Positions 4,583-39,950 of a stretch of 51,259 bases of DNA are shown here, piece after piece. Source of the stretch: Candidatus Nitrosopumilus sp. (GTDB lineage Archaea; Thermoproteota; Nitrososphaeria; Nitrososphaerales; Nitrosopumilaceae); contig REGJ01000005.1 in NCBI GenBank assembly GCA_003702525.1, positions 1 through 51,259 of the forward strand, written 5' to 3'. The position numbers and the translations under genes were made by a program. How positions within the stretch are numbered: position 1 is the stretch's first letter; every line of letters begins with the position of its first letter. The notes beneath the pieces were generated by a model. That model ran no database searches. It was given only the letters and a program-made list of their open reading frames with translations, and had not been told where the DNA came from.

Positions 4583-7500
4583 TGTCCATTCAAGCAGTAA
4601 AAGCAATTGACGGAATCAGATTCTCTGTTTGGTCTCCAACTGAAATCAGAAAATACTCTGTTGCAGAAATCACTGCACCTGAGACCTATGATGAAGATGG
4701 AATGCCTGTTCAAGGAGGTTTGATGGATGGAAGACTAGGAACCCTAGAGCCTGGACAAAAATGTCTTACTTGTGGAAACACTGCAGCAAGATGTCCTGGA
4801 CACTTTGGACACTTGGAATTGGCAGAGCCTGTATTGCACATTGCATTTATTGATAATATCTACAAACTATTACAATCAACATGTCGTTCTTGTGCAAGAC
4901 TAAAAGTTCCACAAGAAGATCTTAACGTCTTCAAAACTATCAAAGAGAAACATGCAGCTTATACTGTAATTTCTCAAAAACGTATTCCAGAACAAATCAT
5001 TGAAAAAGCAAAGAAAGCAAAAGAATGTCCTCACTGTGGTAAAACACAATACGAACTAATCTTTACAAAACCAACTATCTTTGTAGAAAAAACAGAAATC
5101 GGTGAACACAGGTTACTTCCAATTACAATTAGAGAAAGATTCTCACAAATTATTGATGAAGATTTAGAATTATTGTCCTATGATCCTGTAACTGCAAGAC
5201 CTGAATGGTTTGTGTTACAGGCATTTCCTGTTCCACCAGTAACTGTTAGACCTTCAATTATTTTAGAGACTGGAATTAGATCAGAAGATGACTTGACTCA
5301 CAAGATGGTCGATATCATCAGAGTTAATCAAAGACTAAAAGAAAGCAAAGATGCAGGAACTCCTCCATTAATCGTTCAAGACTTGGTAGACCTATTACAA
5401 TATCACACTACAACATACTTTGATAACGAAGTATCTGGAATTCCACAAGCTCATCATCGTTCTGGACGTCCTCTCAAAACCTTAACTCAAAGACTAAAAG
5501 GAAAAGAGGGAAGATTCAGAGGTTCACTATCTGGAAAGAGAGTTGACTTTTCTAGCAGAACTGTAATCTCACCTGATCCTAACTTGGACTTGAGTGAAGT
5601 TGGTGTACCTGAAGCAGTTGCAATGAAACTAACCATTCCTGAAATTGTTACAGAATGGAATATTGAAAGAATGAGAAAACTCGTAATTAATGGACCTGAG
5701 AAATTCCCAGGCGTAAACTATATCGTTAGACCAGACGGTGTAAAGATTAGACTAGACTTTGTAGAGGACCGCTCTACAATTGCTGAAACACTTGAGATTG
5801 GATATTTGGTAGAAAGACATCTTGCAGACGGTGATATTGTCATGTTCAACAGACAACCATCACTCCACCAGATGTCCATCATGGCACACTATGTACGTGT
5901 ACTTCCAGGAAAAACATTTAGACTACACCCATCAGTTTGTCCTCCATACAACGCAGACTTTGATGGTGATGAGATGAACCTTCACGTTCCTCAAAGTGAG
6001 GAAGCAAGAGCAGAAGCAATTCTCTTAATGAGAGTTCAAGATCAATTAATCTCTCCAAGATATGGTGGACCAATTATTGGTGCACTAAGAGACTTTGTAA
6101 CTGGTGCATACCTTCTAACTAAAGATGATACAACATTAACTATTCAAGAATTCTCAAATCTTGCAATGCTTGGTGGTTATACAGACCCTCTTCCAAAACC
6201 TGCAACCAAAACTAAAGACGGTCCAGCTTATACTGGAAAACAACTCTTCTCATTGTTCTTACCAAAAGATTTCAACTATGTCATTACATCAAAGTGGTCA
6301 AAGGGAACAAAAGGACAAGCAAAAGATGTTGTAATTAAAAATGGTGAACTAATTAGTGGTGTCATTGACAAATCTTCAATTGGTGCAGAAGAACCAGAAA
6401 GTGTACTTCACAGAATTGCAAAAGATTATGGCAATGCAGTAGGAAAAACTTTCCTCAACTCTATTCTCATTATGGTAAAACAATTCATCACCCATTATGG
6501 TTTCAGTTATGGTTATGGTGACCTTATTGTACCTGACAAAGATAAACAACAGATTCTTGATGATATTCAAGGAACTTATGATGTTGTAAGTGATTTGACT
6601 GATCAATACAAGAAAGGAACACTCAAGCTTACCAGAGGTATGAGACCTGAAGAAGCCTTAGAGGCATACATTGTAAATGAATTAGGTAAAGCAAGAGACA
6701 AGGCAGGCTCTTCTGCAAATGATTGTCTTCCAGCAGATAATGCAGGAAAAATCATGGCTACAACTGGTGCCAGAGGTTCATCACTTAACGTGGGTCAGAT
6801 GGCAGGAGCACTTGGACAGCAGTCAAGAAGAGGTAACAGGCTTCATGAAGGTTACAACAACAGAGCACTAACTCACTATCAAGAACATGATGATAATCCA
6901 GACGCACACGGATTTGTAAAATCCAATTACAGAGAAGGACTCTCTGCACTTGAATTCTTCTTCCACGCAATGGGTGGTCGTGAAGGACTTGTAGACACCG
7001 CAGTTAGAACACAACAAAGTGGTTACATGCAGCGTAGATTGATCAACGCATTAGAACACATTAGATTAGAATATGATGGAACAGTAAGAGATCCACATGG
7101 ACACATTGTACAATTCCTTTATGGTGAAGATGGAATTGATGTGCAAAAGAGTGACCATGGTATGGCATTCAACCCAAGTAGATTAATTGAATCTCAAAAA
7201 ATTATTGATTCTGGTAAAAAGGCAACAAAAGAAGAGATTGAGACACTTGCCAAGAAATACACAAAGACATTCAATCCAAGACTAACTACACTTGTTACTG
7301 ATACATTACTAAATTCAGAATTAAGTAAAGATGGTGTAGAAGCAGTATGTAAGAAAGGACTACTACTTTACAACAAAGCAAAAGTCGAACCAGGACAAGC
7401 AGTCGGAATTATTACTGCACAATCAATTGGTGAACCTGGTACTCAGATGACACTAAGAACATTCCACTTTGCAGGAATTAAAGAAAGAAACGTAACATTA

Positions 7501-37713: not shown

Positions 37714-37929
37714 TTATATCTTGAGTTTGCCTGATTCTAATCCTTTCTGTACAATGCCAATTAACTCCTCAACTGTACAAGTACGTAATGACTCAGGTAG
37801 TGACTCTGCATTAAATGATTGGAACTTGCCAATCTTTTTTCGAACCAACATCTTTACAATTCCTGGTACGTCATCTTCAAACTTTTGACTAATATGATCT
37901 AGAATTTCATCAACTTCTTTTTTCTTCAC
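37714..37929 (-). CDS. Small hypothetical protein
   Basis: The 71-residue helical product (KKKEVDEILDHISQKFEDD, later SLRTCTVEELIGIVQKGLES) starts at GTG one base after the stop of the membrane protein gene and is surely cotranscribed with it. No family recognised. Confidence 0.6.
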   Translation of the reverse strand: MKKKEVDEILDHISQKFEDDVPGIVKMLVRKKIGKFQSFNAESLPESLRTCTVEELIGIVQKGLESGKLKI

Positions 37930-37930
37930 A

Positions 37931-39004
37931 CTAGTTTGAAGAGAATCTTAGTATTTTAGGTGCAAGGATCATTCCTACTATTCCTGAAACAATTCCTCCT
38001 GGGATGGTCATCATCCAGTCCTTGAATACAACATCTGATGATGTTGGTAATACATCATATGGAAATATGTCATTGTGTAGATACACTTCTAGAAATGTCA
38101 TTGATAGCATTGGAAAACTAAATGCAAAAAACATCGAACCTAGTATTGCACCTGCAACTTTTGCTGAATGTTTTTGCATAACTTTTGATTTCCATTTTTT
38201 GTTAAAGACATAGTCTGCTGCAATCGCACTAATCATTGGTGCTGCAAATAATGGGAGATAAAATATGATGCCTTCAGATGTAAAGATGTTAGATGATATA
38301 TTCATCACAATAAACGTCAGTGCCGCAGTGCTAGTTGCACCAAATCGATTCTGGGCCTTTGATGATGTCCAAAATACTAGGGAATATGCAAATGGAATCA
38401 GAACAAAACTTAGCACAATTGCAACATTAGGATCTGGATTGAAATTGTGGGTTTCTCCTTCTGATATTGGCAGTACGAAAAAAAAGATTAACCACATTAT
38501 GCTAAACCAAAAAATTCCATAAGTTATTGGTAAGATTGCTCTAAAGAAGATATTCTTTTCTTGTAAGTGGAAATTAATTCGTGAAAACCCAATAACAGAA
38601 CCCACTAATGTAGTTAGAATTCCTAACGCAAGTGTTATGTGAGTTGGACTAAGCAGTCCATCTAATCCAAACAATTCGTGCCAGTAAAAATCTCCAGGAC
38701 CTGCTGCAACCTGAATCATTGTACCAATAACTATGAGTTTGAGTCCCATTGCAAATGATTCTGTTCTAACTTCTTTTCTTCTAAGATACATCACAGAACT
38801 CATTATTGCACTAATTACACTAATTCCAACACCAAGATACAAAATTCCATGTGATGGTGTAAAGAATGTCTCAGGTTCTCTTAACAAATGTGATGTAATG
38901 TCCCAACTTGCCCCCCACATTGCCAATGTAGTTCCAGACAATGCTGCAAGAAATACAATTGTAGGAAGTCTCACTTGAGATTTTTGTAAATATTCAGTTG
39001 CCAA
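37931..39004 (-). CDS. Multi-pass membrane protein with duplicated D-x3-H-x10-P-x-H motif
   Basis: The 357-residue product has roughly nine or ten hydrophobic helices. Two segments share exact spacing: D35-x3-H39-x10-P50-x-H52 and D105-x3-H109-x10-P120-x-H122, each followed by a hydrophobic helix with a Leu-Gly step. Paired Asp/His at membrane edges suggests a metal or heme site, but this is inference. I do not recognise the family. It is followed one base later by the 71-residue gene and lies downstream of rpl1-rpl10 on the same strand, after 79 bases. Confidence 0.75.
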   Translation of the reverse strand: MATEYLQKSQVRLPTIVFLAALSGTTLAMWGASWDITSHLLREPETFFTPSHGILYLGVGISVISAIMSSVMYLRRKEVRTESFAMGLKLIVIGTMIQVAAGPGDFYWHELFGLDGLLSPTHITLALGILTTLVGSVIGFSRINFHLQEKNIFFRAILPITYGIFWFSIMWLIFFFVLPISEGETHNFNPDPNVAIVLSFVLIPFAYSLVFWTSSKAQNRFGATSTAALTFIVMNISSNIFTSEGIIFYLPLFAAPMISAIAADYVFNKKWKSKVMQKHSAKVAGAILGSMFFAFSFPMLSMTFLEVYLHNDIFPYDVLPTSSDVVFKDWMMTIPGGIVSGIVGMILAPKILRFSSN

Positions 39005-39083
39005 TATTTCAAACCTGTATTATTATGTTCATAAATGATTCTACTTTTTTTGTGAATTACCACTTGGAAGAATTATCTTTGGT

Positions 39084-39950
39084 TTATGCTGGAGTGTAAT
39101 CTTTTGCTTGACCTACAACTGCTCTTGCTTGAGCATCTGCCTTTTGCAAGATTTGCTCTTTTGTTTCATCAGTCATGTAACCTGATTCAACAGATACAGA
39201 ACGTGCTGATTGTGCTGCTTTTGCCAAGATTTGCTCGATGTTGTCTGGTGTGACATATGCTGCCTCGATAGATAATGAAATTGCTTCTTGGTGTGCTTGT
39301 GCAAATTCATCTCTTACCTTCTCAACATCAATTATCATCTCCTCTTCAGCATACTTGAGTCCATCCTCGAGTGCTGTGAATAATGTGATTCCAGCCTCAA
39401 CTGGTTTGATATCTAATTTACCTAAAATTGCTGCAAGTTTTTCATTGATTGCTTCACCTTTGAGTACTGGTGTTGAGTCTTTTGCAATCCATATTGTACC
39501 TTGGTCAATCTTAGTTGGGATTCCTGCTTCTTTGAATTCTGTAAGCATTGGTCCTGGTGCAATTCCTGTGTTCTTTGCTGGAACGACAATATCGATACTT
39601 GCAATATCTCCGCCTCTGGCCATCATCATGATTTTGTTCTTTGCCAAAAGTACGTTAAGCTTGAATGGTGACATGTCTGTAAACATGAGCATGATTTGTC
39701 CTTTGAATTCTCCAATCATGTCTTTGATTCCTGGAATATCCGAATTCTCTAGTGCTTTTTGTGCAACTTTATCTTTGATGCTGAAAAATTCTACATCATC
39801 TTTGAGAGTTTTTCTTAAAGGTAGTATCTGAGTAGAACGTACCTTGTTCATTTTGATAACTGCCATTACTTTGTATTTTTTTGGTAACTCTTGTAATTGC
39901 TGATACATCTGAGCTTTTCTTTTAGGATATGTGGTTCTATTCTCATGCAT
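39084..39950 (-). CDS. rpl10: Ribosomal stalk base protein P0 (uL10)
   Basis: The 288-residue protein matches archaeal P0: YPKRKAQMYQQLQELPKKYK, a middle GQIMLMFTDMSPFKLNVLLA segment, PAKNTGIAPGPMLTEFKEAG and helical stalk-binding segments (ITLFTALEDGLKYAEEEMII). It anchors P1 dimers on 23S rRNA. The usual acidic tail with a final GLGALFG-like motif is absent; the chain ends VVGQAKDYTPA. It overlaps the rpl1 end by eight bases. Confidence 0.93.
   Translation of the reverse strand: MHENRTTYPKRKAQMYQQLQELPKKYKVMAVIKMNKVRSTQILPLRKTLKDDVEFFSIKDKVAQKALENSDIPGIKDMIGEFKGQIMLMFTDMSPFKLNVLLAKNKIMMMARGGDIASIDIVVPAKNTGIAPGPMLTEFKEAGIPTKIDQGTIWIAKDSTPVLKGEAINEKLAAILGKLDIKPVEAGITLFTALEDGLKYAEEEMIIDVEKVRDEFAQAHQEAISLSIEAAYVTPDNIEQILAKAAQSARSVSVESGYMTDETKEQILQKADAQARAVVGQAKDYTPA

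Follow-up and report, generated by a model that had tools for sequence, protein, structure and literature searches.

A stand-alone membrane protein of Candidatus Nitrosopumilus with a duplicated Asp-His-His motif and its relation to AmoC/PmoC

The copper ligands of the methane monooxygenase subunit PmoC have been assigned to two sites, CuC (D156/H160/H173) and CuD (N227/H231/H245), which lie ~6 A apart. Copper is found in one or the other of these sites, and both are never occupied together (PMC12576850). Bacterial AmoC and PmoC sequences carry the motifs D-x3-H-x12-H and N-x3-H-x13-H, and archaeal AmoC sequences from relatives of the organism studied here carry D41-x3-H-x10-P-x-H and N113-x3-H-x10-P-x-H. 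Which site is the active copper site, and how the methane and ammonia monooxygenases originated, are debated questions on which the protein described here bears. In a published CuMMO phylogeny, the outgroup is the archaeal AMO (PMC6215863). We analyzed a stretch of 51,259 nucleotides from a Candidatus Nitrosopumilus contig (REGJ01000005.1; hereafter the window) that encodes a membrane protein with a double motif of this kind. No description of a stand-alone AmoC-like family was found in the open-access literature.

A double motif within an internal duplication

The gene (37931..39004, minus strand) is an open reading frame of 357 codons plus a stop codon, begins with TTG, and is single-copy in its own draft genome. 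It codes for a 357-aa polytopic membrane protein whose homologs align from start to end, and the AlphaFold2 model has a pLDDT of 90.7 for the whole chain and 91.4 for the N-terminal domain. As the earlier note on this DNA had described, D-x3-H-x10-P-x-H occurs twice with identical spacing. The motif is exact at residues 35–52 (motif 1, DITSHLLREPETFFTPSH; 38849..38902, minus strand) and at residues 105–122 (motif 2, DFYWHELFGLDGLLSPTH; 38639..38692, minus strand). The composition of the protein predicts 0.0002 copies per chain, and among 200,000 shuffles one copy appeared in 31 and two copies in none. The protein is devoid of Cys and contains eight His, four of which lie inside the motifs; these four are the only His conserved in at least 80% of homologs. 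W34, D35, H39, H52, D105, W108, H109, P120, and H122 were invariant in 50 of 50 archaeal homologs, down to 28% identity; none of the six Asp and His residues showed the free variation that the earlier note had named as grounds for refutation.

When the N-terminal domain was split between residues 78 and 79 and compared profile against profile, repeat 1 (residues 10–78; 38771..38977, minus strand) and repeat 2 (residues 79–150; 38555..38770, minus strand) aligned without gaps over 64 columns (probability 96%, P = 5e-9). The same comparison with bacterial and distant members alone gave P = 4e-10. The repeat score was 44.6; no reversed half, none of 60 column shuffles, and no other pair of helices from this chain scored above 18.5. 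Masking the four motif columns left the register unchanged (P = 1e-3). At the level of the full-length protein, the N-terminal half showed no similarity to the C-terminal half. The two halves of the N-terminal domain are an internal duplication that reaches beyond the motifs, and the duplication proposed from the sequence earlier is thereby borne out. The accompanying remark that the regions otherwise differ holds for plain identity but not for profiles, in which the 64 columns align. AmoC/PmoC yielded P = 0.14 in its own repeat comparison, from a smaller alignment, versus 5e-9 here. The duplication is no longer visible in the sequence of AmoC/PmoC, and the stand-alone family therefore keeps it more clearly.

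The model predicts helices at residues 2–40 and 50–75 and at residues 85–112 and 120–146, with each motif running from a helix end into the beginning of the following helix. By helix parity, this would place both motifs on one side of the membrane. Placement on opposite membrane faces, which the earlier note had considered damaging to a joint site, is thus not indicated as far as secondary structure allows. The loop between the repeats (residues 76–84) is rich in Lys and Arg and lies on the opposite membrane side, so the motif side probably faces outward.

Relation to AmoC and PmoC

Residues 10–150 (38555..38977, minus strand) form a four-helix domain that is AmoC/PmoC-like in sequence. Alignment of this domain to AmoC/PmoC with hhalign gave a probability of 97.3% and an E value of 1.9e-11 over 114 columns, and the alignment brings both motifs, together with conserved Gly, Tyr, and Arg positions, into register. 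A profile restricted to bacterial and distant members matched archaeal AmoC with an E value of 7e-8. In a test in which the real pair scored 59.8, shuffled AmoC/PmoC profiles reached 26.7 (column shuffles) and 36.7 (block shuffles), and reversed profiles also failed to reproduce the match. All PDB matches were to AmoC/PmoC. A 16-member profile produced two matches among 177,635 sequences, both to ammonia monooxygenase subunit C (9cl6, E = 0.005; 9leg, E = 0.015), in which D35/H39/H52 align with the D-x3-H-x12-H of subunit C. A profile that included bacterial members produced five matches, all to PmoC or AmoC and all weak (E = 0.2–2). When archaeal AmoC was searched against the family loci with tblastn, 15 family genes were matched and nothing else.

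The two motifs of the window protein correspond to the two copper sites in turn. D35/H39/H52 equate to the CuC ligands, and the CuC motif D-x3-H-x12-H at a helix end and the next helix start is present. The CuD motif N-x3-H-x12/13-H has its counterpart in D105/H109/H122, which have the same positions and spacing but Asp in place of Asn in all members seen; the chemistry of this second site is similar, not identical, to that of CuD. Archaeal AmoC has the double motif in the same order as the window protein, with a spacing of 72 residues compared to 70.

The window protein is not AmoC. It was not matched by the Pfam AmoC model (PF04896) at the curated cut-off, and its best ortholog (L043) scored 17 bits, below the required 26.7. 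No AmoA, AmoB, or AmoX was found near 80 family loci. Members are present in bacteria and in nine Nitrososphaeria genomes without a real AmoC match (G044, G051, G052, G195, G298, G299, G303, G307, and G309), and for three of these (G307, G298, and G195) the weak best matches to the AmoC profile fall in frames that carry the family motifs. Two other genomes (G037 and G053) have AmoC and no family member. The window organism is itself an ammonia oxidizer. A contig edge truncates its amoA (G000:C21:3-374) and probably accounts for the absence of amoC from the draft genome. We conclude that the protein belongs to a previously undescribed family of stand-alone AmoC/PmoC homologs that are not CuMMO subunits.

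Two members have a first motif that is intermediate between that of AmoC (HQTSIRDSAFTPAH) and that of the stand-alone family. One is from genome G307 (L125:2253-3302), with the motif HQTVGRDSFWIPPH, and the other is from Rubrobacter (L134, ~5997-6330), with the motif HATIGRESFWIPPH. These are possible bridges for a tree of subunit C.

The C-terminal polytopic half (residues 151–357; 37934..38554, minus strand) has a weak AmoA/PmoA-like signal (hhalign E = 4e-4, probability 33–37%) that is above most column shuffles. A search of the PDB with the C-terminal profile returned no match. The Pfam AMO model (PF02461) is uninformative for AmoA-like proteins, since it misses the archaeal AmoA known in G013.

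Distribution and gene neighborhoods

A scan of 84,980 species genomes identified 149 relatives, of which 80 were kept, all in thaumarchaeal records. Among ammonia-oxidizing archaea, both long homologs and a short form of ~197 aa occur widely; the short form corresponds to the first ~180 residues. Searches of plasmids with tblastn identified members in Arthrobacter, Rhodococcus, Nonomuraea, Rubrobacter, Deinococcus, Paenibacillus, and one Chloroflexota. In bacterial members whose full sequence was read, D-x3-H-x12 to x14-H and D-x3-H-x16-H are retained, with the exception of the Chloroflexota sequence. Searches of viral contigs and phages found no family member. The window protein reached no family in Pfam or NCBIfam, nor did its homologs in Pfam, and weak DUF matches were rejected as scattered and differing between members. 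The Chloroflexota sequence, from Candidatus Chlorohelix (L143:5899-10017), carries the AmoC-like domain N-terminally in a histidine kinase of 1373 aa that also has beta-propeller and GAF regions. This copy has lost the His ligands, and a reading of it as a copper sensor was dropped for that reason.

A TTTATGAACAT element (39025..39035, minus strand) lies ~20–30 nt ahead of the membrane gene start and is a probable TATA-like promoter element. It recurs before orthologs at unlinked loci (L053, L055, L062, and others), which suggests that the membrane gene probably has its own promoter. The window gene has a ribosomal neighborhood (uL10). A gene for a 71-aa protein (37714..37929, minus strand) begins 1 nt past the membrane gene stop, and the two had been linked earlier through a fused transcript. 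The spacing is real, but the linkage is not conserved. The syntenic locus of genome G002 (L158, compared to 37714–39950 in the window) has the genes for uL1, uL10, the 71-aa protein, and a glycine transporter in this order and no membrane gene, which was therefore either gained in the window organism or lost in G002. The uL10 and 71-aa neighbors occur there without the membrane gene, so their linkage is silent on its function. The 71-aa gene, which lies elsewhere in other genomes, was rejected as a partner because it follows uL10 whether or not the membrane gene is present, and we regard it as an incidental neighbor.

Other members of the family have different neighbors. In clade IV, a membrane-anchored protein of ~193 aa is coded directly upstream of the paralog in a tight operon at 20 of 20 loci (L102, L104-L107, L109, L110, and L112-L124). 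It has a conserved PH and HYPxxGxxDxQ, belongs to no Pfam family, and is probably a beta-sandwich; AmoB was considered as its identity and rejected (profile E = 0.07 over 20 columns). At 14 loci of the Nitrososphaera-type clade, the family gene is followed by a gene for a TetR-like regulator, judged by sequence. At two loci (L072 and L073) a palindrome-like TGACTGACTGGTCAGTTA occurs upstream of the family gene and is a probable operator. Several members of clade I (L054, L055, and others) have a gene for a secreted 411-aa DUF7482 protein ~0.5 kb downstream, in a genomic place unlike that of the window gene.

Gene context in bacteria comes from about eight loci. Two Rhodococcus plasmids have a member beside a multicopper oxidase and a two-component kinase/regulator pair. 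The Arthrobacter member is beside a DUF305 protein and a DUF6153-like protein, the Nonomuraea member is beside a YtkA-like protein and a secreted HxHP protein, and the Paenibacillus member is beside an HxHP protein. The DUF305 protein CopM binds copper (PMC4335983), and in Bacillus, YtkA/CtaK has a supporting role in copper use (PMC13344008). In Deinococcus aetherius, a heavy-metal P-type ATPase is coded a few genes from the member; no copper genes were found at two other Deinococcus loci.

Possible roles and comparison with known systems

The reading we favor, with a probability of about 0.57, is that of an undescribed stand-alone family that has common ancestry with AmoC/PmoC and serves in membrane copper handling outside the monooxygenase. 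Duplication of a two-helix unit would have produced two sites of three residues each, D35/H39/H52 and D105/H109/H122, which share one, probably outward-facing, end of a four-helix bundle, where they would be equivalent to CuC and CuD. We infer copper as the metal, with one ion held in, or passing between, the two D-H-H sites, as proposed for PmoC. The protein might then take up copper at the membrane, deliver it to other copper proteins, or sense it. The copper genes that adjoin several bacterial members and the separation of the family from amo genes speak for this reading. The core of the earlier note, that a duplication built a two-part metal site for which a copper role was attractive, is supported at the level of sequence comparison by the invariant ligands, the duplication, the predicted same-side topology, and the homology to the CuC/CuD domain. 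Several observations count against copper handling: Foldseek searches of the PDB with the full model and with the N-terminal domain did not place PmoC among the best 50 matches (all E > 0.08; small helical bundles are hard for the method), two Deinococcus loci are without copper genes, and the window context is ribosomal. The TetR-like neighbor at 14 loci would also fit an organic effector.

The chief rival is a copper oxidoreductase acting on a small substrate, with an AmoC-like active site, the C-terminal half standing in for AmoA, and a separate beta-sandwich protein standing in for AmoB. For pMMO, the active site has been proposed to lie in the CuC/CuD region (PMC12576850), and the probable beta-sandwich protein directly upstream at all 20 clade IV loci has conserved His. 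The AmoA-like signal of the C-terminal half, weak as it is (E = 4e-4) and above column shuffles, leaves room for such an enzyme and does not establish it. This explanation is unlikely given that the C-terminal profile has no PDB match, that short members of ~197 aa are without any C-terminal half, and that the clade IV partner is not detectably AmoB (E = 0.07) and has no counterpart beside the window gene. A site for another metal such as zinc or iron, or the use of the Asp and His residues as a proton or quinone site after drift from the AmoC role, we hold to be rather improbable. Metal identity is not fixed by sequence, and with Asp in place of the CuD Asn the two D-H-H triads would also suit zinc or iron; however, the identity and spacing of the ligands match the copper sites of AmoC/PmoC, and copper genes adjoin several bacterial members.

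It is about as improbable that the protein is accessory to ammonia monooxygenase, helps in its assembly, or joins the complex as a divergent alternative form of AmoC. The family is widespread in ammonia oxidizers, and alternative AmoC copies are known in ammonia-oxidizing archaea (PMC10030591). Yet bacteria have members, as do families in which AmoC was not detected, the AMO-bearing genomes G037 and G053 have none, and family genes never adjoin amo genes at the 80 loci. Convergence on a similar metal motif by unrelated helical bundles would agree with the Foldseek result and with an overall identity to AmoC of only ~20–29%, but is barely credible beside a 114-column match (E = 1.9e-11) in register with the motifs and the conserved Gly, Tyr, and Arg, on which independent subsets agree and which shuffled and reversed profiles do not reproduce.

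Returning to the stand-alone copper-handling family, a more tentative proposal concerns the origin of the enzyme. The copper subunit of the monooxygenase may descend from this family, with CuC and CuD as the halves of the duplication and Asn replacing Asp in one of them. In that case the enzyme would have taken shape at a later stage around a membrane copper protein that already existed, and the C-terminal half may have been a forerunner of AmoA. The family could serve as an outside relative for subunit C and offers an explanation for the paired arrangement of CuC and CuD. Both sites are present as full D-H-H triads in a single chain, in which copper binding would be open to study apart from the complex, which is difficult to handle. 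It is also a candidate copper-handling protein for a group that ranks among the most abundant marine archaea and has a copper-dependent metabolism.

Among known systems, PmoD of methane and ammonia oxidizers (PMC6189053) is comparable in function alone, as a copper protein that acts around and not inside the monooxygenase. It is periplasmic, with a soluble or anchored domain and a different copper center, and we claim no sequence relation. Bacterial proteins of the CopD/YcnJ type are likewise comparable in how they work, being polytopic with outward copper ligands and having YtkA-like and secreted copper proteins as neighbors; the window protein has no Pfam CopD match. The ~197-aa paralogs of Nitrosopumilaceae share the N-terminal domain and the six ligands with the window protein at ~37% identity, but are without the C-terminal half and have W for P in motif 2 (SWSH). 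AmoC, PmoC, and HmoC (PF04896), from the ammonia, methane, and hydrocarbon monooxygenases, differ from the window protein, which stands alone without amoA/B, has Asp for the CuD Asn, and in its long form has a conserved C-terminal polytopic half. In motif order, helix positions, and near-equal spacing, these subunits and the window protein are alike.
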